From Candidatus Melainabacteria bacterium (lineage in GTDB: Bacteria; Cyanobacteriota; Vampirovibrionia; Obscuribacterales; Obscuribacteraceae), in assembly GCA_020854255.1 (NCBI GenBank), contig JADZFV010000134.1, forward strand, positions 1 through 48,328: a stretch of DNA of 48,328 bases. The letters run 5' to 3'. The position numbers were made by a program, and so were the translations under genes. This document shows, piece after piece, positions 3,912 through 35,204 of the stretch. Below the pieces are notes generated by a model, which was not told the origin of the DNA, made no database searches, and saw only the letters and a list, made by a program, of their open reading frames with translations. Within the stretch, counting starts at the first letter, position 1. Every line of letters begins with the position of its first letter.

Positions 3912-3939
3912 GATCCATCCTTTCAAAAAATGAGTTGTA

Positions 3940-5145: not shown

Positions 5146-5182
5146 AGGGAACCACACCAGGCGAAAATTGTATGAAAAGACC

Positions 5183-5200
5183 ACCGCTCAGTGGAGCGGT
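5183..5200 (-). terminator. Possible terminator after the ubiD-family gene
   Basis: On the minus strand a 7-bp GC-rich stem (ACCGCTC / GAGCGGT, loop of 4) is followed by GGTCTTTT. A second 6-bp stem (GGACCC-type, 5206-5227) lies just before it. Both fall between the UbiD gene and the ctpA ATG, so they may end the upstream transcript or structure the ctpA leader. The U-run is short. Confidence 0.35.
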
Positions 5201-5298
5201 TTGTCGACCCCGTGCAAATTTGGGGTCCGTAAAGGTCTTATGCCACGATCAAGCTAGTTTCAACACTTTTTTCAAAAAAACATCTCTTTACAACACAT

Positions 5299-6882
5299 TC
5301 AGCGCTTAATCGCCTCAGGTGAGCGTGCCACGGCGCTCAAGCCATATTCCTCCCAGCGGGTAGACACCTTCTTCTTGATATCTTCGCGCATTTCCAAAGG
5401 CTTCGGCCAATCTCTCTCGAATCCCTCTGCGCGCCATTTGCGCGTGGCATCAATACCGACTTTGCTGCCATAGCCCAGAAGAGGGCAGGCATGGTCGAGA
5501 ATATCGAGCGGACCTTCTACAAACATCATGTCTCTTTTCGGGTCGGTATTACCAAAAACATGCAGAGCAACCTGAGAAAGGTTCTGGACGTCGACGTCTT
5601 TATCGAGAATTATGGCGAACTTAGTGAACATCAGCTGACCCAGTCCCCACAAAGCGCTCATTACCTTTCGGGCATGCCCGGGAAAACGCTTGTCGATAGC
5701 CAGAATTACACAGTTGTGGAAAACACCCTCCCACGGAAGATTCATATCCACTATTTCCGGAACCAGCATTTGCACCATAGGCAAGAATATACGCTCTGTA
5801 GCTTTGCCTAGATAGCAGTCTTCTTGAGGTGGTATGCCTACTATGGTCGTTTGGTAGATAGGGTTCTTCCTGTGTGTGACAGCCGTCACATGCATAACTG
5901 GAAACAAGCCGGCCAAACTATAAAAGCCTGTGTGATCCCCGAATGGACCCTCTTCTTTTAGCTCCGACTGGTCCACATATCCTTCTATTACAATCTCCGC
6001 GTTAGAAGGTACTTCCAGATCTATGGTTTTGCATTTGGTTAAACGAACAGGGCTCTGTCTCAAGAACCCCGCAAATAAAAGCTCATCTATATCAGGCGGC
6101 AGAGGGGCAGTGGCCGCATAAGTCACAGCCGGGTCGGAGCCGAGCACAATCGCCACTTCCAGTCGCTTTTTCACGTTATCAACTTCCTTCGTCTGGAAGA
6201 ATGTTCCGTAATTAGGCGGCTCTGTCCCGCGTGAGCCATCCGTCCATTCGCCTTTGGCGTCGCGACGGGACTCCTCAAAGTGCTTTGCACCATCATGATG
6301 CTTGTGCCAGTGCATTCCGGTCAGGTCATTTCCGTATTTTTGTAAACGATAGACGCCCAGGTTTCGAATTCCTGTTTTCGGATCGCGGGTTATGACCACA
6401 CCCAGGGTGACAAATGCCCCGGCATCTTCCGGCCAGCATTTGATAATCGGCAGTTTGTCCAGCATCGGCTCTGCAGGATCGGTGATCACAACTTCCTGAC
6501 AGGGCGCAGGCTGACTGGAAAGTTTGGGCGGAAATTTGGCCACATCCATAAGAGTGGGCAGCAGAGCCAGTTTTTCCATGAAGCTCTCCGGCACCTTCGG
6601 TTTGATTAAGTGACGGATACGCTCGGCAATGTCGTCGAGACTTTCTGTTTCAAGTGCCAGACAGATACGCTTCATCGAGCCGAAGGCATTGATCAAAACC
6701 GGAATGTCGTAGCCTTTCACGTTTGTGAAAAGCAATGCCTTATTGGAACCGTCGAGGGACTTGCTCACACGATCTGTGATTTCGGCGATTTCCAAATCAG
6801 TCGAAACAGGCGCGTCGACTCTTATCAGCTCGCCGTGCCGGTCCAGCTCCTCTATGAAAGCTCTCAGGTCGTTGTATCCCAT
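5299..6882 (-). CDS. UbiD-family decarboxylase, possibly of menaquinone synthesis
   Basis: The 527-residue length fits the UbiD family, prenylated-FMN-dependent (de)carboxylases of aromatic and unsaturated acids. Family motifs are visible: LGVYRLQ (175-181), GMHWHKHH (189-196), the AEIVIEG segment (about 295-301) and EGPFGDHTGFY (311-321). Members act in ubiquinone synthesis (UbiD) or, in organisms with the futalosine route, are proposed to decarboxylate a naphthoate intermediate of menaquinone. Because mqnA lies in the same window, the menaquinone role is the better guess, but family membership alone cannot settle the substrate. A UbiX-type flavin prenyltransferase partner would be required and is not present here. 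It is transcribed alone or with the genes upstream on the minus strand. Confidence 0.88.
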   Translation of the reverse strand: MGYNDLRAFIEELDRHGELIRVDAPVSTDLEIAEITDRVSKSLDGSNKALLFTNVKGYDIPVLINAFGSMKRICLALETESLDDIAERIRHLIKPKVPESFMEKLALLPTLMDVAKFPPKLSSQPAPCQEVVITDPAEPMLDKLPIIKCWPEDAGAFVTLGVVITRDPKTGIRNLGVYRLQKYGNDLTGMHWHKHHDGAKHFEESRRDAKGEWTDGSRGTEPPNYGTFFQTKEVDNVKKRLEVAIVLGSDPAVTYAATAPLPPDIDELLFAGFLRQSPVRLTKCKTIDLEVPSNAEIVIEGYVDQSELKEEGPFGDHTGFYSLAGLFPVMHVTAVTHRKNPIYQTTIVGIPPQEDCYLGKATERIFLPMVQMLVPEIVDMNLPWEGVFHNCVILAIDKRFPGHARKVMSALWGLGQLMFTKFAIILDKDVDVQNLSQVALHVFGNTDPKRDMMFVEGPLDILDHACPLLGYGSKVGIDATRKWRAEGFERDWPKPLEMREDIKKKVSTRWEEYGLSAVARSPEAIKR

Positions 6883-7062
6883 GAATTAATCTGCCTCTTT
6901 TACGCCCTTTGCGGCGGGAAAAACGTTATTTTAGCTACAAAAACCACAGGGGCCGGAGAAAAGAGGATAAATATGAACCGGGCTGGCATTTATTAATCGA
7001 GCTCGGCCTTCAAATCGAACAGCGATAAGATAAGGGCTGGATATCCATAAGGCCCACAAAAC

Positions 7063-8496
7063 CTAGCGAATTCCGCTCATCAGTCTGCGCACTGTCGGCG
7101 TCAAAATCCAGAGAATGGCTGCGGCCAGGAATAAGAAGCCGCCCATGGACCCAAACATTTTGATCAATGTGGTGGTGCTGTTTTCATCGAAAAACCCTGC
7201 CAGGTAGCCGGCCAGGAAATTTCCACAAGCCGTAGCCAGCATCCAGACACCCATTGTGCTTGAGGCAAAGCGGGGCGGAGCAAGTTTTGTCACTGTCGAT
7301 AATCCCACAGGACTGAGACACATTTCTCCCAGCACTTGAAGCAAATACGAAATGCACAGCCATAAGGGGCTGACTCTACCATTTGCAGCCAGTATCGATG
7401 CGGGCACCATTATCGCGATCCCCGCTGCCAAAAGGGCCAGACCAATTGCGAATTTGGCCGGGCTGGAAGGCTGGTGGCGCCCCATCTTCACCCACAGTAC
7501 AGAAAACGTGGGCGCCAGAATAATGCAATAAACGGCAGGCAATGTTTGAAACCAACTGGAAGGAAACTTCCATCCGGCCATCGAACAATCGGTCAATTTG
7601 TCGGCAAAGAGATTTAGACTTGAGCCGTCTTGCTCGTATACGGCCCAGAACAATGCGGCAAAACAAAACAAAATGGCAATGGCGCCCAATCTGTTCCACT
7701 CTTGCGTGGTCAGGGGCAACTTTTCCACCGCCTGCTGCGGCGCCGCATCAGACGTTTTAAGGTCAGTGCCGGAAAGAGATTTCACCGGTTTGGCACCTTT
7801 GCTTCCCAGTCGTTTGTATTGGAACAAGAAATGCGCAAGACCGATGAGCATTCCTACTCCGGCGGCGGCAAATCCAAAATGCCAGCTGTCGGAGGCCTTG
7901 AATCCGTATCCGACAATAAAATTTTTGAACTGATCGCTCTGTGCAAGATAGCCGCATACAAGCGGCGACAGTGCGGCGCCGATATTGATGCCCATGTAGA
8001 AAATTGAAAAGCCGCCGTCTCTGCGGTCGTCATCGGCGCTGTAAAGAGTTCCCAATAATGTACTGATATTTGGCTTGAGCAACCCGGTGCCGAGAATAAT
8101 CAGTAGCAGCCCGCCGTAAAAAGCGTAAATGGAATGAATGGCCAGGGTGAAATGACCGAGGGCGATGATGCTGCCGCCGATCAGAATGCACATTTTTGCG
8201 CCGAGAAATTTATCGGCAATCAAGCCGCCCGGGATCGAGGTGACATAGACGCTCGAGGTGTACACACCATATATAGTGGCAGCGGTTCTGGTATCCAGTG
8301 CCATGCCACCGTCCGCAATCGTTGCCACCATATACAGCATCAAAATTGCGCGCATGCCGTAATAGCTGAATCGTTCCCACAATTCGGTAAAAAACAAGGT
8401 GGTCAGTCCATTTGGATGCCCCCACAATCCGGCTGAATCAGACAGACTATCAGCATTGTTGGCTGGCAATGATTCTTCAGAAACGAGTGTCGACAT
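7063..8496 (-). CDS. POT/PTR-family proton-coupled oligopeptide transporter
   Basis: The 477-residue integral membrane protein belongs to the major facilitator superfamily, POT (PTR2) family. The family signature ELWERFSYYGMRAIL lies near the N terminus (about 38-52; ExxERFxYYG couples proton and peptide movement). About 12-14 hydrophobic helices follow, including GLLLIILGTGLLKPNIST, the second POT signature region. The usual substrates are di- and tripeptides driven by the proton gradient across the inner membrane. It starts 2 bases after the stop of the cytidine deaminase-like gene on the same strand, implying an operon. Substrate details cannot be read from the sequence. Confidence 0.9.
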   Translation of the reverse strand: MSTLVSEESLPANNADSLSDSAGLWGHPNGLTTLFFTELWERFSYYGMRAILMLYMVATIADGGMALDTRTAATIYGVYTSSVYVTSIPGGLIADKFLGAKMCILIGGSIIALGHFTLAIHSIYAFYGGLLLIILGTGLLKPNISTLLGTLYSADDDRRDGGFSIFYMGINIGAALSPLVCGYLAQSDQFKNFIVGYGFKASDSWHFGFAAAGVGMLIGLAHFLFQYKRLGSKGAKPVKSLSGTDLKTSDAAPQQAVEKLPLTTQEWNRLGAIAILFCFAALFWAVYEQDGSSLNLFADKLTDCSMAGWKFPSSWFQTLPAVYCIILAPTFSVLWVKMGRHQPSSPAKFAIGLALLAAGIAIMVPASILAANGRVSPLWLCISYLLQVLGEMCLSPVGLSTVTKLAPPRFASSTMGVWMLATACGNFLAGYLAGFFDENSTTTLIKMFGSMGGFLFLAAAILWILTPTVRRLMSGIR

Positions 8497-16977: not shown

Positions 16978-18321
16978 ATGACGGAATCGCCTTACCAAAA
17001 AGCGCCGCAGGGCCAGCAAAACGCGCAAGCGCTCGTATTACAGGGGCGCTACGAAATCATCGATCAGCTCGGACAGGGTGGCATGGGTACAGTTTACCTG
17101 GCCCGCGATCACCGGCTGCACGGTCGCACATACGTTATCAAAAAGCTGAGGGATGATTTCTTCCGCGACGAAGACCGAGAAAAAGCGATGGCCTTTTTCA
17201 TGCGAGAGATTGAGGTGCTTTGCGATCTCAAACATCCCAATATCGTCGACATCAAAGATCACTTTCCAGAAGGCAATGACTACTTCATCCTCATGGAGTA
17301 CGTGGAGGGCAAAAACCTTCACGAGATGCTGCACGAGCGCGGCGAGCCGTTTGCAGAAGAACAGGTTCTGGAATGGTCGGTGCAAATTTGCAAGGTGCTC
17401 AACTACTTGCACACTCACGATCCGCCAGTTATTTACAGAGATTTAAAACCAAGCAACGTCATGATCGACACCTTGGGTAGGGTCAAGCTGGTCGACTTTG
17501 GAATCGCTAGACAATACAGAGACGACTCCGACAATACCCACGTAGTCTCGGCTGGCTATTCGCCACCTGAGCAGTACTGGGGAGCGGCAGAACCTAGATC
17601 TGACGTCTATGCGCTGGGAGCGACGATGTCTTTCTTACTGACCGGACAAGAGCCCCTGGCCTTGCAAACGTCGTCACCTCGAAAACATGTCGAGACTCTT
17701 TCCGAACACGTTGACTATATCGTGCAAAGAGCGACCGCTCAGGATCCATGGCTGCGTTTTCAAAACGCGCTGGAGATGCTGGAAGAACTGGAATATCAAC
17801 CGGAAGTCAAACGTGGTCTGCCGCAAGGCAACTGGCTCTGGGGCGGTATCATCGGAGTCTCGGTTATCTCTTTGGCATTGGCCATTCTGTATGTCGGCTG
17901 GCACAGCGCCTTTAACGCCAAGCAAGATGGTCAGGCAATCGCCAACAAAAACGAAAAACGCGTCGGCACATTGGAAAAGGAACTCAAAGACGTTGCCGAT
18001 CGAGAGCAGAAGGTCAAACAGCAGCTGGAGATATTGCGCAGGCACATGGAAGACGAAGGCAAAAAGAAGTCGCAGGAAGTAGCCCCAAGAGTAGCGGACT
18101 CACAACCTGAGTCAGGCACACCTGGCGTGTCTCCAATGCCCTTGCCGCAAGTCAGTCCGCTGCCGCCTGAGGACACGATGAAAGCGAAAGGACCTGAAAT
18201 TATATTCCAGGAAGACTCAGAAGCACAACTGACGGACCCTGAAGGATTGGCACCGCTGGAGGAAGATTCGCACAAATCGCCTTTCGGATTTCCCATATTC
18301 AAGTCGACTGAAAACCGTTAA
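16978..18321 (+). CDS. Membrane-anchored Ser/Thr protein kinase (Hanks type)
   Basis: The 447-residue protein has a complete kinase domain (about 24-275): Gly loop LGQGGMGTVYLA (31-42), Lys of VIKKL (55/56), catalytic loop YRDLKPSN (153-160, D155), DFG (173-175) and activation-segment end SAGYSPPEQY. A single membrane helix follows (286-308, GGIIGVSVISLALAILYVGW). Outside it lie a charged coiled coil (about 325-365) and a Pro/acidic tail, so the kinase faces the cytoplasm and the coiled coil the periplasm. The usual HRD is YRD, as in the second kinase at 33906-35060, indicating one subfamily. It phosphorylates Ser/Thr on unknown targets. It is preceded by an extended -10 promoter and a leader hairpin, and followed after 32 bases by a membrane-protein gene. 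Confidence 0.93.
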   Translation: MTESPYQKAPQGQQNAQALVLQGRYEIIDQLGQGGMGTVYLARDHRLHGRTYVIKKLRDDFFRDEDREKAMAFFMREIEVLCDLKHPNIVDIKDHFPEGNDYFILMEYVEGKNLHEMLHERGEPFAEEQVLEWSVQICKVLNYLHTHDPPVIYRDLKPSNVMIDTLGRVKLVDFGIARQYRDDSDNTHVVSAGYSPPEQYWGAAEPRSDVYALGATMSFLLTGQEPLALQTSSPRKHVETLSEHVDYIVQRATAQDPWLRFQNALEMLEELEYQPEVKRGLPQGNWLWGGIIGVSVISLALAILYVGWHSAFNAKQDGQAIANKNEKRVGTLEKELKDVADREQKVKQQLEILRRHMEDEGKKKSQEVAPRVADSQPESGTPGVSPMPLPQVSPLPPEDTMKAKGPEIIFQEDSEAQLTDPEGLAPLEEDSHKSPFGFPIFKSTENR

Positions 18322-18353: not shown

Positions 18354-18854
18354 ATGCCGCTCTTACACCCCTTCCAAAAGGTAAGAGAACACCTTTGGCA
18401 GAGTGCTCTTTTCGGAGCTACAGCCGGCTGCTTGAGCCTGGTTGCAGCGGCGGTGGTAAACGGAATCTCCCTGACTATCACTCATCAAAAACTCTCTTTT
18501 CTCGCCAACGGAATGGTGGGGATCTTCTGGGGACTCTTTGTGGGCGTACCGATGGGCGCGATGTGGGGCGCCACCATATTGAACGTCCTCAAATTGACAA
18601 GAAACCTGGGCAGAGAATTCTGGCCGCGCATTCTTGTTTATACAGCAGGCGGAGTTGCCGGCCTCCTAATTGCCTACACACCATTGGGCAAGATGATGGC
18701 GACGAATTTCAGTGCTTTGAGCTATACAACAGGCATTCTCGATCCGTTCGCGCCTGTCAGTCAGTGGATTCCAATCATGCCTATTACAGGCACTCTGGCC
18801 CTGGCGCTCATTGCTCTGTGGAAGAGGAAAGTCGGCCAATATGATTCTCAGTGA
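18354..18854 (+). CDS. Hypothetical membrane protein with four predicted helices
   Basis: The 166-residue protein is strongly hydrophobic. Helices are predicted at about 16-42, 50-76, 92-111 and 138-156, with a short basic N terminus and a basic C-terminal end (LWKRKVGQYDSQ). Gly- and Ala-rich helix surfaces (FGATAGCLSLVAAAVV, GLFVGVPMGAMWGA) suggest tight packing. No family is recognised and no charged catalytic residues lie within the membrane. It starts 32 bases after the membrane-anchored kinase, so it may be co-transcribed with it. It overlaps the end of the convergent uppP by 7 bases. Ribosome-binding evidence is weak. Confidence 0.65.
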   Translation: MPLLHPFQKVREHLWQSALFGATAGCLSLVAAAVVNGISLTITHQKLSFLANGMVGIFWGLFVGVPMGAMWGATILNVLKLTRNLGREFWPRILVYTAGGVAGLLIAYTPLGKMMATNFSALSYTTGILDPFAPVSQWIPIMPITGTLALALIALWKRKVGQYDSQ

Positions 18855-19675
18855 ATCAAATTGGCGGCAGTCAGTACAATCAAAGCAACACCGAATATGA
18901 TGCGATAGATAACAAAGACCCACGTGGAATGATTGCTCAGATACTTGAGCAGCCAGGCAATTGCTGCATAACTGACAATTGCTGAAACGACCGTGCCAAT
19001 TACCAGCGCTGCAATGCTTGATTCCGTGGTGCCATGCTCGAGAAAATGTTTGAGTTCAAAAATTCCGCTCAGTGCCGTAGCCGGAATTCCGAGTAGAAAA
19101 CTAAATCTGGCAGCGTCTTCGCGCTTCAAATTCGACAGCATCGCAACAGTCAAAGTAGAGCCACTGCGCGAGCAGCCTGGAATCAAAGCCAGAGCCTGTC
19201 CCAAGCCAATAATCAGTCCATCCTTGACGCCAATCGAATCAAGGCTGCGTATATGTTTGGCCAGCTTTTCGGCAGCCAGCAAAAGCAGTCCCATCACGAT
19301 CGATGCCGTTCCGATTAAATAAAGGCTGCGCAGCGGGCCGCCATTTTGTTCCAGGATGTCTTTGAACAACAATCCAATTACGCAAACTGGTATCGTTCCG
19401 ACAATTATCGCTCCGGCGATTCGAGCTTCCTTGCTCTCCAGATCGCCCTTTCTAAGCGCATTGAACGAACCGGTGGACAGTAAAACTATATCGTTTCGAA
19501 AATAAGTAAAAAGTGCCAAAACCGAGCCCAGCTGAATGACGGCGGTAAAATCCACTCCCGGATCGGCCCAGCCAAGCAAGGCCGGTACTGCTCTTATGTG
19601 AGCCGTACTGCTTATTGGCAAGAATTCGGTTAGCCCCTGAACGACTCCTAATACGACCGCCTGCAGTGCGTCCAT
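18848..19675 (-). CDS. uppP: Undecaprenyl-diphosphatase
   Basis: The 275-residue integral membrane protein matches UppP/BacA. Signature 1 is QGLTEFLPISSTAH (13-26, E17 catalytic region) and signature 2 is the PGCSRSGST loop. It dephosphorylates undecaprenyl pyrophosphate to regenerate the lipid carrier for peptidoglycan and surface glycans, and gives bacitracin tolerance. The start chosen (ATG at 19675) puts the signature where it is in homologues. An ATG at 19696 is also in frame, and a still longer frame would run inside the pilZ gene. The gene starts right at the pilZ stop, so translational coupling is likely. Order: rsmI, pilZ, uppP. Confidence 0.94.
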   Translation of the reverse strand: MDALQAVVLGVVQGLTEFLPISSTAHIRAVPALLGWADPGVDFTAVIQLGSVLALFTYFRNDIVLLSTGSFNALRKGDLESKEARIAGAIIVGTIPVCVIGLLFKDILEQNGGPLRSLYLIGTASIVMGLLLLAAEKLAKHIRSLDSIGVKDGLIIGLGQALALIPGCSRSGSTLTVAMLSNLKREDAARFSFLLGIPATALSGIFELKHFLEHGTTESSIAALVIGTVVSAIVSYAAIAWLLKYLSNHSTWVFVIYRIIFGVALIVLTAANLIH

Positions 19676-19679
19676 TGAT

Positions 19680-20438
19680 TCAGCTTGGTTCAACATCGGG
19701 TGGTGAGATTTCTCCTGTCTTTCTAATGAAAGTGTGGTCTTCTTTCTGTCCGCGCTGCTCTCCTTTCCAACCGAAGAGCTTGCCGGCCATTGATGCGGTT
19801 TCTTCTTCAGGCTTGTCGTCCAGACCCAGCAAGGCAAGAAGTTTCATCAAGGTGTCGGACGAATCGTCGTCCATGTAGGTCATCTCGACACCGAGTACTG
19901 TCTTATTGGCCAACCAGTCTTTTTTAACCCGGATCACACGGGCGGTAGCTTCGATTTTTCCCGTCTTCGCATCGATGTTGACAATGATGCTTTCTCCGAC
20001 TTCTACTCTGGCGGGAAGATCGCTTTGAGAAACAAGGGCGATACCGGAACTGGAAATATCCTGCGTTCTCAAATGAAAGCTGTTTTCATCGCCTTCAAGG
20101 CGAATAGTTGCATTCACATCAAGTGCGGCTCTTGGTGTTCTGCGCCTCTGCAGAAGCGCTTCCAGTCGGGGAGCGGAACAGACAAGTGCGGTGCGGCCGG
20201 AGAATAATTGCGCGCCCAGAACGCTTGTCGCCCACATGCCATTGAAAGAATTTTCGGAAGATTCACTGACGAACCACATCCGTGTGCCCTTGGGTAAAAT
20301 CTTGTTCGCCTCGCGACTGGTTTTCAATTGCACGAGAATCTTCTCGCCCAGTTTGTCCACGATGGTCGCTCGCCCGAAGCCAACTTCTCCCGGCACCGCC
20401 TCGACTTTTACTTTGTATGCTTTACCTTTTTGAAACAC
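19680..20438 (-). CDS. PilZ-domain protein (c-di-GMP receptor)
   Basis: The 252-residue protein has a YcgR-like N-terminal beta domain (about 1-95) and a PilZ domain (about 96-215). The c-di-GMP binding motifs are both present: RxxxR at R99-R103 within QRRRTPR, and DxSxxG at D127-G132 (DISSSG). It therefore should bind cyclic di-GMP and relay it to an unknown partner, commonly motility or exopolysaccharide machinery. The C-terminal 40 residues are charged and probably disordered. It is the middle gene of rsmI-pilZ-uppP on the minus strand and its stop overlaps the uppP start region. No diguanylate cyclase is in the window. Confidence 0.88.
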   Translation of the reverse strand: MFQKGKAYKVKVEAVPGEVGFGRATIVDKLGEKILVQLKTSREANKILPKGTRMWFVSESSENSFNGMWATSVLGAQLFSGRTALVCSAPRLEALLQRRRTPRAALDVNATIRLEGDENSFHLRTQDISSSGIALVSQSDLPARVEVGESIIVNIDAKTGKIEATARVIRVKKDWLANKTVLGVEMTYMDDDSSDTLMKLLALLGLDDKPEEETASMAGKLFGWKGEQRGQKEDHTFIRKTGEISPPDVEPS

Positions 20439-20524: not shown

Positions 20525-21379
20525 TTACCTGTTTTGTCGCTCTTTCTGGAAGTCAACAACGAGACGGTACACGTCAGACCGCTTTCTTTCAAAGATTTTT
20601 GCCGCATCCTGAGCGACATCTGAGGCTCTGTCACCATGCTCCAGCCTGAGCCGAACATATTCCTCATATTCCTTTTCACTTCGATCGCTATCTTCAGTAT
20701 CGGGGTCTTTATTTCCTTCAATGACCAGGACGAATTCCCCTCTGGCTCCCTTCTGATTGATTTTTTGCGTAATTTCTTCCACCGTACCCCGAAGAAACTC
20801 TTCGTGCAATTTGGTCAATTCCCGTGCCAGGCAGGCTTTACGCTGCCCAAACAGGGCTCTCACTTCGGACAAAGTGCGCTCCAGCTTGTGGGGCGAGACG
20901 TAAAAAACCAGAGTCCGTTTTTCTTTAACCAAGCCCATCAGCGCATTACGGATATCTTTCGGCTTGTCAGGAAGAAAACCTTCGAAGCAGAAACGATCGC
21001 AAGGTAAACCGCTGCCTACCAGAGCCAGCAAGAATGCGCTTGGTCCGGCGATTGGAATGACTGCAAAACCCAGCTCTAAGGCTCTGGCAATCAAGTGTTC
21101 TCCAGGATCGGAAATAAGTGGTGTGCCGGCATCCGACAGCAACGCCACGGTCAGATTCTTTTGCTGAGCCTCGCTTAAGACCTGAAGTCGTTCTTTTTCA
21201 TTGTGTTCGTGACAGCTGACCATCTGTTTTTTCAAATCCAGATGGTTGAGCAGCCGGGCGCTGACACGAGTGTCTTCCACCAAAAGAATGTCGGCTTTTG
21301 CAAGCACGTCCTTAACCCGGTCGCTCAGATCGTTCAAATTGCCTATTGGGGTACCAACTATATATAGAGTCCCTGCCAA
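20525..21379 (-). CDS. rsmI: 16S rRNA (cytidine-1402-2'-O)-methyltransferase
   Basis: The protein has 284 residues from a TTG at 21379 with AGGA 5 bases upstream. An ATG at 21415 gives 12 more residues that homologues lack. Family motifs: GTLYIVGTPIGNLNDLS at the N terminus, LLVEDTRVSARLL (about 31-43), LLSDAGTPLISDPG (SAM-binding region) and PIAGPSAFLLALVGSGLP. The enzyme methylates the ribose of C1402 in the 30S decoding centre using SAM. A C-terminal extension of charged residues precedes the stop. It is the first gene of rsmI-pilZ-uppP and diverges from the DNA methylase gene. Confidence 0.95.
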   Translation of the reverse strand: MAGTLYIVGTPIGNLNDLSDRVKDVLAKADILLVEDTRVSARLLNHLDLKKQMVSCHEHNEKERLQVLSEAQQKNLTVALLSDAGTPLISDPGEHLIARALELGFAVIPIAGPSAFLLALVGSGLPCDRFCFEGFLPDKPKDIRNALMGLVKEKRTLVFYVSPHKLERTLSEVRALFGQRKACLARELTKLHEEFLRGTVEEITQKINQKGARGEFVLVIEGNKDPDTEDSDRSEKEYEEYVRLRLEHGDRASDVAQDAAKIFERKRSDVYRLVVDFQKERQNR

Positions 21380-21632
21380 GAGAATCCTGCTTTCTTTCCG
21401 TAAACAGCAAAACATCCACAGTATCCGGGATCCGAGACTTTTTACAGGTTTTCTACAGCTGTAGATAATTTAATTCCCGACCTTAATAACACCAACTTGC
21501 ATTTCAATATCAATGGTCTCCTCGTTGCCACCTGGACGATTTCGCCATAAATTTGAGTGGTGACGAATTAGACTATAAAGTCATGATGATTGAGCTGCTC
21601 ACCCTTTCAGGGAATTTTCGACGCGACATTTG

Positions 21633-24068
21633 ATGAAACAGCCAAAAACGCCACAGTCACACAAAAAAGCTCTCATGCAACTGCGTCTTGCAGTAGCTCG
21701 CGCAACAGTCCGTTACGCACTAAATACAACGTGTGCTAAGGGCGATATACCTGACGCCGCGGAGCTTTCCGAACTTTGTGATGAATACGCTTTGCGTGCT
21801 TTGGCAATCTGGCTCGCCACCACTTGTGGTTCGCATATATGCAGATCGGCTATGCCAAAAACCCACTGGCAAGAAACACCGGCTCTGCTATCTCACATGG
21901 TTAGGAATAATGAATATCCTTTTGCTAACTCGATTTCAAAGGAGCTGGAAAGTGAGTTGATCGCAATCGCTCAAGAACAGCTCTTAGCAGGGCTGGCTCC
22001 CAATGTAGAGCTTCTGGGAACTCTCTTCGAACAGATCGCCAATCAAAGCCTGGATATATCTTTAGAAGAAGGCGGGAAAGTCGGATTTGATATTCAGGCG
22101 AAAGAAAGAAGGCGCATTATCGGGCAATTCTATACGCCACCGCCGGTAGTGAAATACTGCTTTGATATAGCTTTTGGAAGAAACTTAGCTGAATTAATAA
22201 ATCGCCTTAAACCGGCTAAATCAGCGCCTATATTGGCTGATCATCAACAAGCATCCAGGTCGCATATCTCAAAAACATTCAAAGTGCTGGACCCTTCGGC
22301 TGGCACCGGAAATTTCCTTTGCGGCTTTATTCAATATGTAAGAAATACAGACGCATGGCAATCAAGTAATCAAATAGAAAATGCAGAGACGTTATATTCT
22401 CTTGCCTGCTACTCTCTGCACGCGCGAGAAATAGACGCACGTGCAGCCTGTCTGGCAAGGCTGGCAGTAACCCTTGCCGTCAAAGATGAAATCGGCTTCC
22501 TGTGTGAATCAAACGTGAGCCCTGAAAAGGCCGGTTCAGACTGCGTACATCTATATAAATATCTAGCTCAAAAATTGCAGCAACATTTTGTCGTTTCTGA
22601 TTCGATTCTTGCTGCAGCCCATTTAGACACTGGCGCCGATAACGAATTCGACCTGGTGATTACCAATCCCCCCTATGTAAGCTTCGGCGCACGCAACCAG
22701 AAAGTTCTACTTGAAGGATCTGCCAAATTATTGAAGCGGCGTTATCCGGAGGCGGCAGAATATAAAGTTCGCTATCATTCGATATTTCAAGATATCGCCC
22801 TCAGATATACTGCCACCGGAGGCAGTATCGTGCTTCTTGTCCCGGACGGCTTTCTGACCGGCAGTTATTACCGCAAATTGAGAAAGCTTTTGCTTAAAAG
22901 CTGCCGGATTCAATCATTGACTGAACTGCCGGCCTCAATAATTCCTGATGCGGTGGTGGGAAGATGGTGCATAGCTCACTACCTGAAAGAAAAGGAAAAT
23001 GAAGGAGATTATCTCGTTGACCTGGCCACATTTATCGACGAGAAAGGGCAAGCTTTAGGGTCCTTAGAAGGCGGGCCGAATACAGCACAAACATATGCAT
23101 TGTCGATAAATGAGCTGCGTGATAAGACCAGCGACTCCTTTCGTCTGATTTTCGATAAGCAGGATCACGAGCTTCTGAAGCTCACCGACCGGATGCCCAG
23201 ATTGAAAAGCCTGCTCTGCGGATATACAGGCATACGTTCTCTGACCGGCAGAAACTCAATCACAGGCAGGCAGCCTATCGATAAATCCTGGCGTAGAGGA
23301 ATTACATCCGGTGCGCAGGTAAAGCGTTTTATGGTCTTTTGGGCAGGCGACTGGATAAACGTCAACCCGAAATTGCTCTTTAAAGGCGGCTTCAACGAAC
23401 AAGTAGTCGAGAATCCCAAAATATTGGTCAGGCAAACCGGCGATTCGCTCGTTTGCGCCTTAGATCCAAGCGGGCTCTACCATCTCAACAACGTACACAG
23501 TTTTTCCGCCGCCTTAAGCAAGGACCCATCACTTGATTTGCCGAGCCTTTGCGCGATTATGAACTCCAGTCTCTGGCGCCACCTCTACAGGCTGAGAACA
23601 AGAGAGACCGGCAGGGCGCTTGCGCAAGTCGACATCGACACAGTGGAAGCAATGCCAATTCTTCAACTCCAGGCAATGAATGAACTATTGTGCCGTGGCG
23701 TTTCTTACCTGACAAACCGCATTTCCGAACTGATAGCCTATAAAAGCCTGGACTCCTGCCAAAAGACCGACGATCTGATACTCTTCATCGACAGATCGAT
23801 CGACCGGCTCATCTACGATGCGTATGATTTGGACCCTTTTATCGTAGCCAGAGTAGAAACTGTGAGCGCAAAAGTGAGAGTAAAGACGAGACTGTCAGCA
23901 CTTCAACCTCAGGAGACTGAAACAATTAAGAAAAACGCGGACAATTCTGAGGCAAGAAGACTCGTGCACGCATCGATCAAACTGCAATCAATCAATCTGG
24001 AAACAGCTAAGACACGGCTACCATCGTCAAAAGAAGTTCAAGATTTTATCGAGGAAATTTCATGCTAA
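21633..24068 (+). CDS. Orphan adenine-type DNA methyltransferase (Eco57I-like/N6_Mtase)
   Basis: The protein has 811 residues. A helical N-terminal region (1-150) is followed by a gamma-class amino-methyltransferase core: GQFYTPPPVVKYCFD (164-178), motif I LDPSAGTGNFL (219-229) and motif IV NPPY (345-348). A C-terminal target-recognition-like part contains WRHLYRLRTRETGRALAQVD and VEAMPIL. Such enzymes methylate adenine N6 at a specific sequence using SAM. No PD-(D/E)xK nuclease motif is evident in the N-terminal region and no restriction gene is adjacent, so it appears to be an orphan or a type IIG relative lacking nuclease. TTG at 21630 is an alternative start. Its end overlaps the next ATG by 7 bases, coupling it to a secreted caspase-fold protein. 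Confidence 0.85.
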   Translation: MKQPKTPQSHKKALMQLRLAVARATVRYALNTTCAKGDIPDAAELSELCDEYALRALAIWLATTCGSHICRSAMPKTHWQETPALLSHMVRNNEYPFANSISKELESELIAIAQEQLLAGLAPNVELLGTLFEQIANQSLDISLEEGGKVGFDIQAKERRRIIGQFYTPPPVVKYCFDIAFGRNLAELINRLKPAKSAPILADHQQASRSHISKTFKVLDPSAGTGNFLCGFIQYVRNTDAWQSSNQIENAETLYSLACYSLHAREIDARAACLARLAVTLAVKDEIGFLCESNVSPEKAGSDCVHLYKYLAQKLQQHFVVSDSILAAAHLDTGADNEFDLVITNPPYVSFGARNQKVLLEGSAKLLKRRYPEAAEYKVRYHSIFQDIALRYTATGGSIVLLVPDGFLTGSYYRKLRKLLLKSCRIQSLTELPASIIPDAVVGRWCIAHYLKEKENEGDYLVDLATFIDEKGQALGSLEGGPNTAQTYALSINELRDKTSDSFRLIFDKQDHELLKLTDRMPRLKSLLCGYTGIRSLTGRNSITGRQPIDKSWRRGITSGAQVKRFMVFWAGDWINVNPKLLFKGGFNEQVVENPKILVRQTGDSLVCALDPSGLYHLNNVHSFSAALSKDPSLDLPSLCAIMNSSLWRHLYRLRTRETGRALAQVDIDTVEAMPILQLQAMNELLCRGVSYLTNRISELIAYKSLDSCQKTDDLILFIDRSIDRLIYDAYDLDPFIVARVETVSAKVRVKTRLSALQPQETETIKKNADNSEARRLVHASIKLQSINLETAKTRLPSSKEVQDFIEEISC

Positions 24069-25627
24069 GAGACGCCATAATTTATACCGCAGTCCTGCTC
24101 TTTCAGACGGCATGGATGCAAACAGCAATGGCGGAGAATTCCTTTGTGCGCATGAAAAACGCAGCACTGTCAAAAGTAAGTGCAGCACAGCAAAGGATCG
24201 CCGCACCGGTTAACACTGCAAAGAAGACGGGACCAGCGACCGAAATCCGAGACAAATGGGGAGTTTTCATCGGTGTCGGTCAATTCGAAGACCCGAGTAT
24301 CGCTCCTTTAAAGTTTGCCTTCAAAAACACTACTTGTCTTACAGACGTCTTTAAAAATGTCGGCATCGGCAGGTTTGCGCCCGATCACGTGATTGCAATC
24401 GCCAATCAAGCGGCACGAAAGGATTCAATAGAGCAAACGCTGACCGATCAGTGGCTCTGTAAAAAGGCCCTGCCTGAAGATCTCGTCGTCATCTACATTT
24501 GCACGCGGTTCGTTCGGGGTGAAGCAGGCAGAGGCGTGATGCTCCTCGCCAGTGACACCCGGCTGGAAAACGCGGCACAAGATGGAATTCCTCTCAGTGG
24601 GTTGTTGTCCAATGTCAAACGACGCCTGCAATCCAAGCGCGTAATCGCTTTTCTCGATCTTTCTCCTGCGGTCAAGGAAAACGATCCATCCGCCTCAAAA
24701 GATGGCGGGCTGAATATCGAAGCCATAGCAAAAAACAGCTGCGTCACCATATTGTCGGCGACAAGAGGAATGCAGCAGTCGCAGAGTTCTTCAGTCGCAC
24801 CTGTCTCCAGTTTTGCTCAATACATTGTTGAAGGAATGACCTCAGGCATGGGCACTCTGCCCCTTGCTGCCGTAGCTGGATATGTGGTTGAAAGCGTCAA
24901 TCGAGATGCCGCCAGCGTGCACGGAAAAGAACAGACTCCGCTTTTCGTGGCTGCAAGCGACAGTCCCGGTATCACCGACGTGCCCCTGGGAGTACGCCTG
25001 AAAAGCTCGATTGCCGAAAAGTCGGTGCAGATTGGGCATCCGATCGACCAGCTGACTATGCAACGTCCCGATATCATTTCCGGTACACCCGGGCGCCAGA
25101 GCAGATCAAGAACTCTGATTGCTGCGAAGCTTCCAGGCAATGACTTAGATATCGCCCAAGCAACAAAGGCTCAACCCGAGACATCAGTGGAAAAGGCGCC
25201 GGCCGGCGCAAAACCTCAAGCGGCAGCCAATACTCCGCCTGCAAAAACACCAGCGAAAGCTGCTGCCAAGGAAGCAAGCGACGATGACGACAACGACGAC
25301 ACGCCGCCGCAAAATGTCGACATGGGCCCATATATAAAAGAGATGAAGCGCTTGATTCAATCTAAGTGGACGCCGCCAAAAGGCATGCAAGAAAAACATG
25401 TGGTCTCTGTTTTTACGATCCGGCGCAACGGCACAATTGAAGATCCGACCATTGTGGAAAGTTCCGGCACCGAATCGGTCGACGAATCGGCCATGGCGGC
25501 CTTGAAAGCGGCCTCGCCTCTGCCTAAGCTGCCAGCCGGCTCGCCTCAATTCATCCAAATTCGCTATAAGTTCGATTGGAACGTCAAGCCCAGCGCCGGC
25601 TCGGGCAATCCAAGTGCCTCCCCATAG
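24062..25627 (+). CDS. Secreted caspase-fold pseudoenzyme fused to a TonB C-terminal domain
   Basis: The 521-residue protein has a signal peptide (IIYTAVLLFQTAWMQTAMA, cleavage about residue 24). A C14-type caspase-like domain follows (about 62-300). DKWGVFIGVGQFEDPSIAPL matches the first strand and loop of metacaspase-like domains, and VVIYI (142-146) and KRVIAFLD (192-199) match the two catalytic strands. The residues after them, normally SGHG and DxCxSG, read CTRF (147-150) and DLSPA (199-203), so the His and Cys appear replaced by R149 and S201. Then come an Ala/Pro/Lys linker with an acidic run (about 370-415) and a TonB C-terminal domain (418-508, VDMGPYIKEMKRLIQSKW to FIQIRYKFDWNV). 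It is probably periplasmic and non-proteolytic. Its ATG overlaps the methylase stop. Confidence 0.7.
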   Translation: MLRDAIIYTAVLLFQTAWMQTAMAENSFVRMKNAALSKVSAAQQRIAAPVNTAKKTGPATEIRDKWGVFIGVGQFEDPSIAPLKFAFKNTTCLTDVFKNVGIGRFAPDHVIAIANQAARKDSIEQTLTDQWLCKKALPEDLVVIYICTRFVRGEAGRGVMLLASDTRLENAAQDGIPLSGLLSNVKRRLQSKRVIAFLDLSPAVKENDPSASKDGGLNIEAIAKNSCVTILSATRGMQQSQSSSVAPVSSFAQYIVEGMTSGMGTLPLAAVAGYVVESVNRDAASVHGKEQTPLFVAASDSPGITDVPLGVRLKSSIAEKSVQIGHPIDQLTMQRPDIISGTPGRQSRSRTLIAAKLPGNDLDIAQATKAQPETSVEKAPAGAKPQAAANTPPAKTPAKAAAKEASDDDDNDDTPPQNVDMGPYIKEMKRLIQSKWTPPKGMQEKHVVSVFTIRRNGTIEDPTIVESSGTESVDESAMAALKAASPLPKLPAGSPQFIQIRYKFDWNVKPSAGSGNPSASP

Positions 25628-25871
25628 CTGATTGTCCGCTTTTTTGCACGCACTTCACTTGAAAAACACGAACGATACATGCAGATGTATTATTTCTAGT
25701 GAGAAGTTACTGTAACTACGTAATTACCGCATTGACTGCCAGCAATGTACAGGGTAAGTTCGAAAATGAGGTATCAGGTCTTGCTTCGGGGCCGATCTCG
25801 AAGCGACCGTTACTAAATTCCGTAAAATAGCGCAAAAGACACCCCATGGCAGTTTGAGGGCAGGAGCTTTT

Positions 25872-26348
25872 ATGAGCAGAGATGTAGGTAGAGAAATACC
25901 AAAAGGCGGCGGCGACAAGAGCAATGACGGCTCAGCCCAGATGCATCGTGAGGCCTACGAGAGCAAGGACAAAAAAGAGAAGGCTGAAAAGAAAGACGTT
26001 CAACAGGCCAAAGAAGTCAAGAAGATCTCTGACAATAAATTAAAGACTGCCGATCAGGTTGTGGAAGACTACGCCAAATCAAAAAACGGCGAAAACCTCA
26101 AGGCACTGCGCACGACTCTGGCTGGGCCAAACGTTGAGCAGTATTGCAAAGACGGCGCTCAAGCAGCGGTCGACTGGGCGCAAAGCCAGGCCGACAAAGG
26201 CGGCTATGGCAAGCTTATGGCTGGAATCCTTACCCTGACCGGACCTCCTGGCGAAAATTCGGTCAAGAACAAGGGCGGATCGCAGACCAGTGGACCTTCC
26301 ACAACGCAAAGCAAGCAAGGTCCAACTATCGATCCCAACAATTTCTAA
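25872..26348 (+). CDS. Small charged hypothetical protein
   Basis: The protein has 158 residues from the ATG at 25872, chosen because AGGAG lies 5 bases upstream; an ATG 18 bases earlier is less well placed. The N-terminal third is very rich in Lys, Glu and Asp (KDKKEKAEKKDVQQAKEVKK) and probably a helix or coiled coil. The middle is an alpha-helical region (LRTTLAGPNVEQYCKDGAQA), and the C-terminal third is Gly/Ser/Thr-rich and disordered. No signal peptide and no known family is recognised. The preceding 244 bases contain an AGTTAC-T-GTAACT inverted repeat (25705-25717) of unknown role. It is followed by the 38-bp palindrome at 26418. Confidence 0.65.
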   Translation: MSRDVGREIPKGGGDKSNDGSAQMHREAYESKDKKEKAEKKDVQQAKEVKKISDNKLKTADQVVEDYAKSKNGENLKALRTTLAGPNVEQYCKDGAQAAVDWAQSQADKGGYGKLMAGILTLTGPPGENSVKNKGGSQTSGPSTTQSKQGPTIDPNNF

Positions 26349-26578: not shown

Positions 26579-26848
26579 GTGCCTAATATCAAGTCAGCAA
26601 AAAAACGTGTCCTTGTCTCCGAACGCAATCGCATTCGCAACAAGACATGGAAGTCCGCAGTCCGCACCGTGCGTAACAACGTTGCCGATGCAGTCAAGTC
26701 GACCAGTGCAAAAAACGCCAAAGAAGCTCTCAGCCATGCCTATGAAGTAATCGACAAGGCAGTGGCAAAAGGGGTTTTGCACAAGAACGCAGCAGCCAGG
26801 AGAAAATCTCGTCTGGCCACCAAAGTTCTGGCGCTCTCAGCCAAGTAG
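26579..26848 (+). CDS. rpsT: 30S ribosomal protein S20
   Basis: The 89-residue length and the N-terminal PNIKSAKKRV signature identify S20. The helical basic core (RNRIRNKTWKSAVRTVR) and the C-terminal KGVLHKNAAARRKSRLA are typical. S20 is a primary binder of 16S rRNA in the 30S body. The start is a GTG with AGGA 9 bases upstream. A TAGAAT -10-like hexamer lies at 26533-26538 without a good -35. It is not in a ribosomal operon here, as is usual for rpsT. Confidence 0.97.
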   Translation: MPNIKSAKKRVLVSERNRIRNKTWKSAVRTVRNNVADAVKSTSAKNAKEALSHAYEVIDKAVAKGVLHKNAAARRKSRLATKVLALSAK

Positions 26849-27104
26849 TCGCAAAAAAAATCAAAAGCATCAAGAGTCGGCGCCCAGACGCGTCGGCTTT
26901 TTGGCACGTACTTGCCAGCAGAATTTCCTGTCTTGGAGCCTGAACTTAGCGATCACTTTGATCTTTAGCCGCAAAGACGATTGAGCACAGCGGCTTTTCC
27001 GGCTAAGATGTGTCTGAGAATTGATTGAAGAAATCCTCTGAAATCGAGACGCAGTTTGGTTCTTGTCATTCAATGCATTTCCCTTCGATATGCAAAAGGA
27101 GTCT

Positions 27105-28601
27105 ATGAGCATACATCCTGGCGGTTTGGAACATACATTGGAGATAGACAGAACTGTCGAGCCCACAAGTACCCAGCAGGCAGCATTGCAGACAGCTGAA
27201 TTGAAACTTGAAAATCTTGCCGAACCGGTGCATTTCATCGGCATTGGCGGCATCGGCATGTCGGCACTGGCCAGATTGCTCTTGCGCGAAGGTAAAGCTG
27301 TATCTGGTTCTGACAAGCAGGCTGGAGATATCACCAACGAACTCGCCGATTTGGGCGCCAAAATTTTTATCGGGCACGTGGCCGAAAACGTGGCGGAAGC
27401 CGGCAGTCTAGTGATCTCCACGGCTATCGTCAATGAAAACCCAGAGTTGGCGGCTGCACGCGCCAAGAATCTGCCTGTGTTCCACCGTTCTCAAATGCTG
27501 GCTGCGCTCGGCTCCAAATCAAAAATGGTGGCGATTACAGGCACGCATGGCAAGACGACAACCACTGGAATGGTGGCACAGGTTCTCATTGACGCTGGTC
27601 TCGATCCGAAGGTAGTGGTTGGTGGCATTTTCGAGCGCATCGGCAGCAATGCTCGCTACGGACAGGGCGGCTATTTCGTTGCCGAAGCCGACGAATCAGA
27701 CGGCACCCATGCAAATTTGCCGTCGCATCTGGCGGTGATAACAAATATCGAGCCCGATCATCTGGAGAATTATCCGGGCGGCATGGCGCAAATCGAAGAA
27801 GCGATGCTGGAGTTCGCTGCACATACAGACAACAATGTGATCGTCTGTGTAGACGATATCGGCTGCAAAAATTTGCTCAAAAGAATCGCCAAGCCAACAG
27901 TCACTTATGGCCGAATAGATCTCGCACCGGAAGCCGATTATCGATATGAGTCCTTACCCGGATTCGCCATGCGCGTGTATAGACGAAACTCTCTACTTGG
28001 CGAATTGACCCTCAAAGTACCTGGCGAGCACAACAAACAAAACGCCCTGGCGGCAATTGTTTCCGGTATGGAGCTGGGCATTCAATTTGAGCAGGCGGCT
28101 CGCTCACTTGAGACTTTCGGTGGTGTCGCACGTCGCTTTCAAATCAAAGGTGAGGTTGCCGGTACGGTCGTCGTCGATGACTATGCCCACCATCCGACTG
28201 AAGTGATTGCCACGCTGCAGGCGGCTAAGCAATATCTGGCCGCTCAAGCCGTCAACGGAAGTAAGGTAAGTTCCCGAATCGTCGCGGTCTTCCAACCGCA
28301 TCAACCGGGACGATTGCGCGACCTCTGGCAAGAGTTTCTAAAGTCGTTTGACGGCGCCGATCTTGTTTTGATCACAGATATCTACGTAGCACGTGGTGGC
28401 GCGATTGAAGGCATAACCACAGAGCGTTTCGTTCGCGAAATGAGTCATGCCAATGTAAAACATTTGGAAGGCAAGACAACTGATCTTGCCGCCAAGATAG
28501 CCGGTCATCTTCAGCCGAATGACCTGGTTTTGACTATTGGAGCCGGTGATATTACAGATGTCGGCAGCGAGCTCATCAAATGCTTGAAAAAAGGCAAGTG
28601 A
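27105..28601 (+). CDS. murC: UDP-N-acetylmuramate--L-alanine ligase
   Basis: The protein has 498 residues from the ATG at 27105 (AAAAGGAG just upstream; in-frame starts at 27063 and 27090 are less supported). Motifs: nucleotide-sugar loop GIGGIGMS (46-53), ATP P-loop GTHGKTTT (146-153, K150), EADESDGTH, and DDYAHHPTE near the start of the C-terminal domain. MurC adds L-Ala to UDP-MurNAc in the cytoplasm, opening the peptide branch of peptidoglycan synthesis. An N-terminal extension of about 40 residues precedes the first strand, longer than in E. coli. It overlaps murB and heads murC-murB-hydrolase-murF-like-ddl. Confidence 0.96.
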   Translation: MSIHPGGLEHTLEIDRTVEPTSTQQAALQTAELKLENLAEPVHFIGIGGIGMSALARLLLREGKAVSGSDKQAGDITNELADLGAKIFIGHVAENVAEAGSLVISTAIVNENPELAAARAKNLPVFHRSQMLAALGSKSKMVAITGTHGKTTTTGMVAQVLIDAGLDPKVVVGGIFERIGSNARYGQGGYFVAEADESDGTHANLPSHLAVITNIEPDHLENYPGGMAQIEEAMLEFAAHTDNNVIVCVDDIGCKNLLKRIAKPTVTYGRIDLAPEADYRYESLPGFAMRVYRRNSLLGELTLKVPGEHNKQNALAAIVSGMELGIQFEQAARSLETFGGVARRFQIKGEVAGTVVVDDYAHHPTEVIATLQAAKQYLAAQAVNGSKVSSRIVAVFQPHQPGRLRDLWQEFLKSFDGADLVLITDIYVARGGAIEGITTERFVREMSHANVKHLEGKTTDLAAKIAGHLQPNDLVLTIGAGDITDVGSELIKCLKKGK

Positions 28602-33905: not shown

Positions 33906-35060
33906 TTACTTATTGAAAAAATGCCTTAGCTTGTCCCAGAAACTTTGAGAAGGTTGTTGCGTCTGTGTATTTCTCTTGCGGTATGTAGAATCTTTAGCAT
34001 CCGGGCGCGTCATCCGCTCGCTGGTTTTTCGCCCTCCTGAGCCATGCTGTTGGTTCTGCTCGAATCGTTCTGCGTCTTTGCGTGTCACTTTCTGCCAGTC
34101 CTCTTCCTTGGGTGGTTCTCGCTCGAGCCAGTTAGATGGACGTTTGCTCGAATCAGAATGCAAACCGGAGCGCAAGTTAGGATTGGTGGGCGGCCCGTCC
34201 TTGCGGGTTATCGTTGCCGCTACAGGCGCTGCCATTAACGCCTCTTCCGGAATTTCAAAATCAGGATGAATAGCATGATAGATTTTATAAAGCTCATAGC
34301 GAATTTCGCGAGCGCTGAATGGTCGATCTTCCGGATTGTGCGCGGTCAAACGTCGAATCAAGTCGTCCAGTTCCGGAATCACATCCGGATGTGTAATGCC
34401 AGGCGCACTTACAGTCAGCGGTTTCGGCCGCACCCCCGTACAGAGATGCCCAAGCGTAGCGCCAAGAGCATATAAATCACTGCGCGTTTCCGGACGTCCG
34501 AAATACTGTTCGGGCGGAGAGTAGCCTGCTGTAACGACTCTTGTGGCAGCCTGCTTTGGCATGAACATGCGGGCGATGCCGAAATCAATAAATACGATTT
34601 GACCTTCCGGGGTGAGCATCAAATTGCTCGGTTTGAGATCTCTATAAATAATTGGTTGATCTCTTTCATGCAAATATTCGAGTACTTCGCAGCACTGAAT
34701 GCCGATCTCAACTGTGGCTTCAGAGCCGAACGGCCCATAATTTTGCACGATGCTGTCCAGGTTCTTGCCCGGGACATAATCCATAACTAGGAAGTATTTG
34801 CCGTCATCGGTGACGTGAAAGTCCGAAAAACGTACAATGCCGGAGTGATTTAATTGCCGCAGAATATCGACTTCGCGTTTGAACAGCCTTTCTGCTTCAA
34901 ATTGCTCGTCTGGATTGCTGGGTTTGCTTATCAGTTGTTTGACTACGCACTGCCTGTTGCCCTGCCCTTTGTCTTCAGCCAGGTAAATAACGCCCATACC
35001 GCCCTGTCCGAGCGGTTGGCAAAATCTATACCGTTGAAACCAGTCAGCGGAACTTAGCAT
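33906..35060 (-). CDS. Cytoplasmic Ser/Thr protein kinase (Hanks type)
   Basis: The protein has 384 residues from the ATG at 35060; an in-frame ATG at 35129 adds 23 residues and cannot be excluded. Kinase motifs: LGQGGMGVIYLAED (17-30), K41 of CVVKQL, the YRDLKPSNLML catalytic loop, IDFGIAR and TAGYSPPEQYFG. After the kinase domain (to about 275) comes a long hydrophilic tail, Arg/Lys/Gln/Thr-rich, ending in FWDKLRHFFNK, a short amphipathic helix that might touch the membrane. No transmembrane helix is present. The YRD in place of HRD and the GYSPPEQY segment match the kinase at 16978-18321, so the two are paralogues. It is divergent from ssb. Confidence 0.9.
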   Translation of the reverse strand: MLSSADWFQRYRFCQPLGQGGMGVIYLAEDKGQGNRQCVVKQLISKPSNPDEQFEAERLFKREVDILRQLNHSGIVRFSDFHVTDDGKYFLVMDYVPGKNLDSIVQNYGPFGSEATVEIGIQCCEVLEYLHERDQPIIYRDLKPSNLMLTPEGQIVFIDFGIARMFMPKQAATRVVTAGYSPPEQYFGRPETRSDLYALGATLGHLCTGVRPKPLTVSAPGITHPDVIPELDDLIRRLTAHNPEDRPFSAREIRYELYKIYHAIHPDFEIPEEALMAAPVAATITRKDGPPTNPNLRSGLHSDSSKRPSNWLEREPPKEEDWQKVTRKDAERFEQNQQHGSGGRKTSERMTRPDAKDSTYRKRNTQTQQPSQSFWDKLRHFFNK

Positions 35061-35204
35061 TGCGAGTTCTAACTCCGGCACTTGCACACATGGCCGTGCC
35101 TCACGATTCCGATACAGCAATAGATTCATACCCCTGCTATCGGCCTATCAATCGAGCTGTAAAGCCAAAAGGACGATGGACAGGTATCAAGCAAAAGTCA
35201 AGAG

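Follow-up and report, generated by a model that had tools for sequence, protein, structure and literature searches.

A family of predicted pseudo-orthocaspases fused to a TonB/TolA-type domain, conserved across the Obscuribacterales

It is still not settled why bacteria retain dead caspases, and the question bears on a gene found in a 48,328-nucleotide stretch of DNA (the window; contig JADZFV010000134.1 of assembly GCA_020854255.1, positions 1 to 48,328, forward strand) from Candidatus Melainabacteria bacterium, a member of the order Obscuribacterales. An open reading frame (ORF) at 24062..25627 would encode an exported protein in which a caspase-like domain is joined to a TonB/TolA-type C-terminal domain. 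Is this fusion a protease, the remains of one, or a protein kept for something else? We find that it belongs to an ancient, order-wide, single-clade and syntenic family in Obscuribacterales, and that it is a functional protein rather than a broken protease. Its own genome is represented by 6.19 Mb in 674 contigs (90% complete); below, f1 denotes its own taxonomic family and f2 the sister family.

A caspase fold ahead of a TonB/TolA-type domain

The gene and the parts of its product are as follows.
24062..25627, + strand: pseudo-orthocaspase-TonB_2 fusion gene, ORF of 521 aa with ATG start (profile matches, AlphaFold2, orthologues)
24062..24133, + strand: putative signal peptide, residues 1-24, cleavage between TAMA and EN (sequence rules only)
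24245..24970, + strand: caspase p20 domain predicted to be catalytically dead, residues 62-303 (NCBIfam, BLAST, alignment, AlphaFold2, Foldseek)
24326..24328, + strand: Asn89, S1-pocket Asp column (equivalence to T. brucei MC2 Asp95 by our own alignment)
24506..24508, + strand: Arg149, catalytic His column (alignment, 40 orthologues against 26 active paralogues)
24656..24664, + strand: Asp199 to Ser201, the latter in the catalytic Cys column (alignment, 40 orthologues)
25034..25072, + strand: family-specific GHPxDxLxxxRPD motif, residues 325-337 (alignments)
25097..25312, + strand: Ala/Pro/Lys-rich linker with the acidic tract DDDDNDD at its end (low confidence in the model)
25313..25585, + strand: TonB_2/TonB_C (TolA-like) C-terminal domain, residues 418-508 (profiles, AlphaFold2)

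Several lines of evidence identify the caspase part. The NCBIfam model caspase_w_EACC1 matched residues 68-269 at 1.5e-10, under that model's cut-off; BLAST against intact caspase paralogues of the same genome gave 27-32% identity with E-values down to 1e-26; and Pfam Peptidase_C14 matched 13/30 orthologues (best 2e-11). From an alignment in which 30 orthologues were combined with 24 caspase paralogues, AlphaFold2 modelled residues 61-310 at a predicted local distance difference test score (pLDDT) of mostly 93-98, falling lower in a single loop around 200-220; the TonB-type domain was for the most part at 88-97 and the linker was disordered; from the single sequence, AlphaFold reached a pLDDT of 35 and was not usable. 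In a Foldseek search of the PDB the top ranks went to MALT1 and caspase-7, with GSU0716 and yeast Yca1 lower, so that the caspase fold proposed by an initial annotation of this DNA was recovered by both structure prediction and fold search. Because active paralogues were within the AlphaFold2 alignment, the predicted fold depends in part on homology, for which the BLAST matches to the paralogues and the Peptidase_C14 matches are the evidence. A PDB sequence search with the fusion protein returned TonB/TolA-type matches only and no significant caspase match, and the caspase assignment therefore rests on paralogues, profiles and fold. Taking sequence and predicted structure together, we regard membership of the caspase p20 (C14) fold family as confirmed.

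The C-terminal domain, also called as TonB/TolA-type by the initial annotation, matches TonB_2 (1.2e-14, residues 423-501) and TonB_C (1.5e-8), is predicted to run helix-strand-strand-helix-strand, and has PDB profile matches to TonB (1e-6) and TolA (0.004). TonB_2/TonB_C matched 30/30 orthologues, as did tolA_full, for which the score of the window protein (36.5 bits) is below the cut-off of 59.45. With a mean pairwise identity of 56%, against 36% for the caspase part, it is the best conserved part of the protein. Between the two lie the GHPxDxLxxxRPD motif and the acidic tract; the linker varies from 16 to 149 aa among orthologues and is acidic and rich in Ala, Lys and Asp. Two orthologues from one genus (L129, L130; G039, G037) have a strongly diverged TonB-type domain and linkers of 79 and 149 aa. 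Beyond the caspase domain the linker and TonB domain alone were detected and no p10, no dedicated p10 model having been run.

At the N-terminus, MLRDAIIYTAVLLFQTAWMQTAMA is followed by EN at an A-x-A site (a rule-based call, not one from SignalP). No further hydrophobic helix or transmembrane segment was found by such rules, in agreement with the signal peptide noted previously, and a hydrophobic N-terminus with an A-x-A-like site recurs in 39/40 orthologues. We infer that the protein would be exported via Sec and, with its signal peptide cleaved, be soluble in the periplasm.

Given a TonB-type domain, the protein could be an energy transducer that serves an outer-membrane receptor, the caspase domain then acting as a regulatory spacer. 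It carries the TonB_C/TonB_2 domain of such transducers, and the genome encodes two ExbD proteins (one beside ExbB) and one TonB-dependent receptor. However, the fusion has neither an evident retained N-terminal membrane anchor nor the long Pro-rich region that spans the periplasm, which makes its coupling to ExbBD unlikely; the ExbD loci are on other contigs and the identified genes flanking the fusion are not exb. Membrane-anchored, Pro-rich TonB-like proteins are, moreover, encoded elsewhere in the genome, and in f2 such a protein adjoins ExbB/ExbD. The apparent lack of anchor and spacer, together with ExbD genes and anchored TonB-like proteins encoded at other loci, led us to reject the energised TonB reading, which we consider improbable. 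A small exported TonB-C-like protein and, by eye, a Fur-like regulator lie close to the genome's one identified TonB-dependent receptor (L155:7077-7475, 6622-7077, 3610-6375).

Loss of the catalytic residues

When the fusion protein was aligned with 26 active paralogues from its genus, SSHG fell on C147-T148-R149-F150 and DACHSG on D199-L200-S201-P202 (within DLSPAV). The catalytic His and Cys are thus replaced by Arg149 and Ser201, exactly the residues that the initial annotation had named; it was also right that CTRF stands in place of the His-bearing motif, but that motif is S[ST]HG here, not SGHG. Across 40 distinct f1 orthologues the His column holds Arg (32), Lys (6) or Ala (2), that is, Arg/Lys in 38/40, as against His in 26/26 active paralogues, and the Cys column holds Ser (18), Ala (6), Thr (5), Gln (4), Leu (3), Gly (2) or Asn (2) and never Cys. 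The dyad occurs in 0/40 orthologues, which argues that the fusion protein is not an active orthocaspase and leaves no intact His/Cys pair at the catalytic columns, as the earlier reading required. In the f2 orthologues the His column is Ile/Leu or a gap, varying by alignment, and the Cys column is Asn or Tyr. A tree in which the active paralogues were sampled from the own genus only unites the 40 orthologues in one clade (support 100/100), so that inactivation is most simply a single event.

Other parts of the active site have changed as well. The column of TbMC2 Asp95, which has an S1-pocket role in metacaspases (PMC6426788), is Asp in 26/26 active paralogues and Asn (31), Ser (7), Ala (1) or Asp (1) in the 40 orthologues. 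Of the two acidic S1 residues reported to be kept in the cyanobacterial pseudo-orthocaspases, a trait that does not define the group, the family accordingly retains D199 (Asp211-like, invariant in 40/40) and has lost the other in 39/40. K65, W66, F105 and P138 are likewise invariant among the orthologues, D77 is newly invariant in all 40, Trp241 is lost, and so are residues flanking the catalytic loops (the Gly of SHG; the H, S and G of CHSG). Judged by alignment and modelled fold, the protein is a pseudo-orthocaspase, with a p20 fold and its dyad replaced. A cryptic enzyme with other chemistry, for example with Ser201 as nucleophile, would find support in the frequent Ser and in the invariant D199 and D77, but the variety of residues at the Cys column, the absence of a conserved catalytic base at the His position and the lost loop flanks make such an enzyme very improbable.

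Distribution and constraint

The full-length fusion is present in 41/50 genomes of f1, normally in one copy per genome, and the orthologues in five other genomes of the genus are 61-71% identical. In G019, a further f1 genome, the TonB-C end alone is visible, at the edge of a contig; in six drafts (G002, G003, G010, G014, G035, G047) murC either could not be found or sits close to or right at the end of its contig, so that the fusion locus was probably not assembled there. In f2 a diverged orthologue (about 25% identity) occurs in 2/3 genomes. Those records with a name among the matches are MAGs of Candidatus Obscuribacterales or Melainabacteria. No further match appeared among about 330 other genomes of the class (E <= 1e-33), nor, in a sample of the phylum, outside the own genome (E 1e-45). 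A contig search with the single protein as query found nothing; with an alignment as query it succeeded. The same architecture conserved across the order argues that the fusion is not due to chance.

For the caspase and TonB-C parts, the ratio of non-synonymous to synonymous substitution rates (dN/dS) was about 0.04-0.14 in those genus pairs where it could be computed, with dS near saturation, and this computation shows purifying selection on the coding sequence. A protease gene that is decaying and has no function would explain the lost catalytic residues; against it stand the full-length copies in 41 genomes, the low dN/dS and the family-specific invariant residues. Pseudogene decay, rejected on conservation and dN/dS, has practically no probability in our judgement.

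One genus, g6 (G017, G018), has at the position upstream of rpsT-murC an exported TonB_2 protein of 159-163 aa that lacks a caspase domain.
L175:6002-6478 (G018) and G017:C32:8863-9111: stand-alone exported TonB_2 protein of g6, rpsT-murC locus
No Pfam Peptidase_C14 match at all was found in g6. The MurC tree nests g6 inside f1 (enclosing branch support 83/90), which makes a secondary loss of the caspase half more likely than an ancestral state, and the stand-alone protein at this locus indicates that in g6 the TonB-type domain serves a purpose by itself.

Paralogues in the same genome

By BLAST, caspase-type genes and TonB-C proteins each number about 12 in the own genome, and among the paralogues read the window gene alone joins the two domains. 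Most of the caspase-type paralogues keep an intact dyad (SSHG/DACHSG) and several have signal-peptide-like N-termini. In such company the fusion could be a decoy or allosteric regulator of the cell's many active exported caspases, either as a cFLIP-like partner or as a substrate trap, and pseudo-caspases elsewhere do act in this manner (cFLIP-L; TbMC4, processed by TbMC3; PMC6426788). Yet the near-complete genomes G026 (98%) and G048 (97%) retain the fusion with no active caspase found, and in the f2 genomes the fusion is the sole caspase-like frame found. Its persistence in G026 and G048 argues against an obligate, ancestral decoy role and led us to reject an obligate regulator of active caspases; the substrate pocket of the family is not conserved, a poor fit to a trap. 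Overall, we consider a decoy or regulatory role unlikely.

Further pseudo-caspases were seen by eye in this genome at L158:642-1580 (G000:C666; His to Ala, Cys to Asp), L160:1024-2793 (C279; His to Glu, Cys to Lys) and L161:14-1807 (C520; His to Ser, Cys to Ala), the last two with C-terminal repeats resembling tetratricopeptide repeats (TPR). On G000:C311 an active TPR-orthocaspase gene directly adjoins a TPR-TonB_2 gene (L144:2796-5459 and 5751-7805), a second caspase/TonB-C association, as neighbours and not as a fusion.

Gene neighbourhood

The genes around the fusion in the window are as follows.
18848..19837, - strand: uppP/bacA undecaprenyl-pyrophosphate phosphatase, conserved neighbour
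20525..21415, - strand: rsmI-like methylase, divergent upstream neighbour, conserved in f1 and f2
21630..24068, + strand: Eco57I/TaqI-like DNA methylase, sharing 7 nt with the start of the fusion gene; not present throughout the family
25854..26348, + strand: small ORF with a hydrophilic product, lying between the fusion gene and rpsT, no Pfam match (window copy)
26579..26848, + strand: rpsT (S20), conserved downstream neighbour
27063..28601, + strand: murC, followed by murB, murF and ddl

At the 34 named loci, where the contigs extend, rsmI diverges from the fusion gene, accompanied by uppP and in many cases by a PilZ gene, and rpsT-murC-murB lie downstream of the fusion gene on the same strand. 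In f2 the fusion adjoins rsmI, plus uppP where the contig allows, and is not beside murC. Cell-wall genes abound in this block (uppP, murC, murB, murF, ddl), a setting that suggests a link with peptidoglycan synthesis or cell constriction. Scans for promoters and terminators at the locus did no better than shuffled sequences. A functional partnership with the overlapping DNA methylase was rejected, as the methylase is not beside the fusion in many genomes of the family. Before rpsT, other inspected genomes (L069-L096) have a similar-looking hydrophilic, low-complexity ORF of about 130-200 aa, and two similar Ser/Thr-kinase-like genes flank the cell-wall block (window 16978-18321 and 33906-35129).

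Proposed function

The reading towards which we lean, with little more than even confidence, is that of an exported, non-cutting pseudo-orthocaspase that serves as a binding module with a tether to a partner in the envelope and probably with a part in cell-wall or outer-membrane work. After Sec export and signal-peptide cleavage, a soluble fusion protein would work in the periplasm. There its TonB/TolA-type domain would dock on an envelope partner, be it an outer-membrane protein, a Tol-Pal-like protein or the flexible N-terminus of such a protein. The caspase domain, in which Arg/Lys at the former His position would have reshaped the groove, would offer a non-cutting platform for a second partner. 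The whole would act as a flexible tether that helps to organise the envelope, probably with peptidoglycan synthesis or cell constriction. The initial annotation had proposed a non-proteolytic periplasmic module coupled to an envelope machine; the evidence favours the module, and the coupling is something that we, too, infer.

Several points weigh against this proposal. The envelope partner of the fusion protein is a hypothetical one, and its export and cleavage are predicted from sequence rules. The conserved position near mur genes could come from chromosomal neighbourhood and not from a shared function, the intergenic gaps at the locus being about 200 nt, with no shared promoter shown. Nor is the Arg/Lys replacement universal, since two f1 members have Ala and the diverged f2 members have Ile/Leu.

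Tentatively, and somewhat short of even confidence, we propose further that, in a single conversion, a caspase fold became the non-catalytic periplasmic adaptor of a TonB/TolA-type tether for cell-wall or outer-membrane assembly, independent of caspases and photosynthesis, in which the conserved Arg/Lys remodels the former active site. These non-photosynthetic cyanobacterial relatives keep the fusion order-wide and in a fixed place beside cell-wall genes. Its retention in a non-photosynthetic order, also where no active caspase was found, indicates that pseudo-caspase function is separable from proteolysis and from photosynthesis alike. The fused TonB/TolA-type domain suggests in which compartment the protein works and offers a handle for finding the partner.

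Comparison with known systems

Pseudo-orthocaspases are already known: they make up 8.6% of bacterial orthocaspases, mostly Tyr-Ser and similar (PMC6426788), one RG variant is listed (PMC8283722), and a tie to photosynthesis has been proposed (PMC6426788). We found no description of a caspase-TonB fusion or of its syntenic family. PMC6426788, PMC8283722 and PMC3501461 make no mention of TonB, and a literature text search, outside which most subscription journals lie, returned no paper with both 'orthocaspase' and 'TonB'.

With the cyanobacterial and alphaproteobacterial pseudo-orthocaspases (YS, YN, YA, FS, QC; PMC6426788, PMC8283722; Synechocystis SyOC, PMC7889975) the family shares a p20 fold without p10, a replaced dyad and wide retention in its lineage, and with the YS variant an N-terminal export-like signal. 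Most of those proteins have Tyr in place of the His; they retain the two acidic S1 residues, seldom include additional domains and have been linked to photosynthesis, whereas the fusion family has Arg/Lys for His, one S1 Asp lost, a fused TonB_2 domain and non-photosynthetic hosts. The active TPR-orthocaspases of the same genomes belong to the same domain family (25-32% identity) and several have signal-peptide-like starts, but they keep SSHG/DACHSG intact and have TPR and other partners, with no TonB domain in those read. In metazoan and trypanosome pseudo-caspases (cFLIP-L, TbMC4) a dead caspase fold is likewise a scaffold or regulator, one that acts with active caspases, whereas the fusion persists without them. 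Finally, the TonB/TolA C-terminal domain proteins (PF13103, PF03544, TIGR02794) have in common with the fusion the helix-strand-strand-helix-strand domain and a flexible linker ahead of it; in place of their long Pro-rich or coiled-coil spacer, the fusion has a short, variable, acidic linker, no evident anchor after signal-peptide cleavage, and a caspase fold in front.

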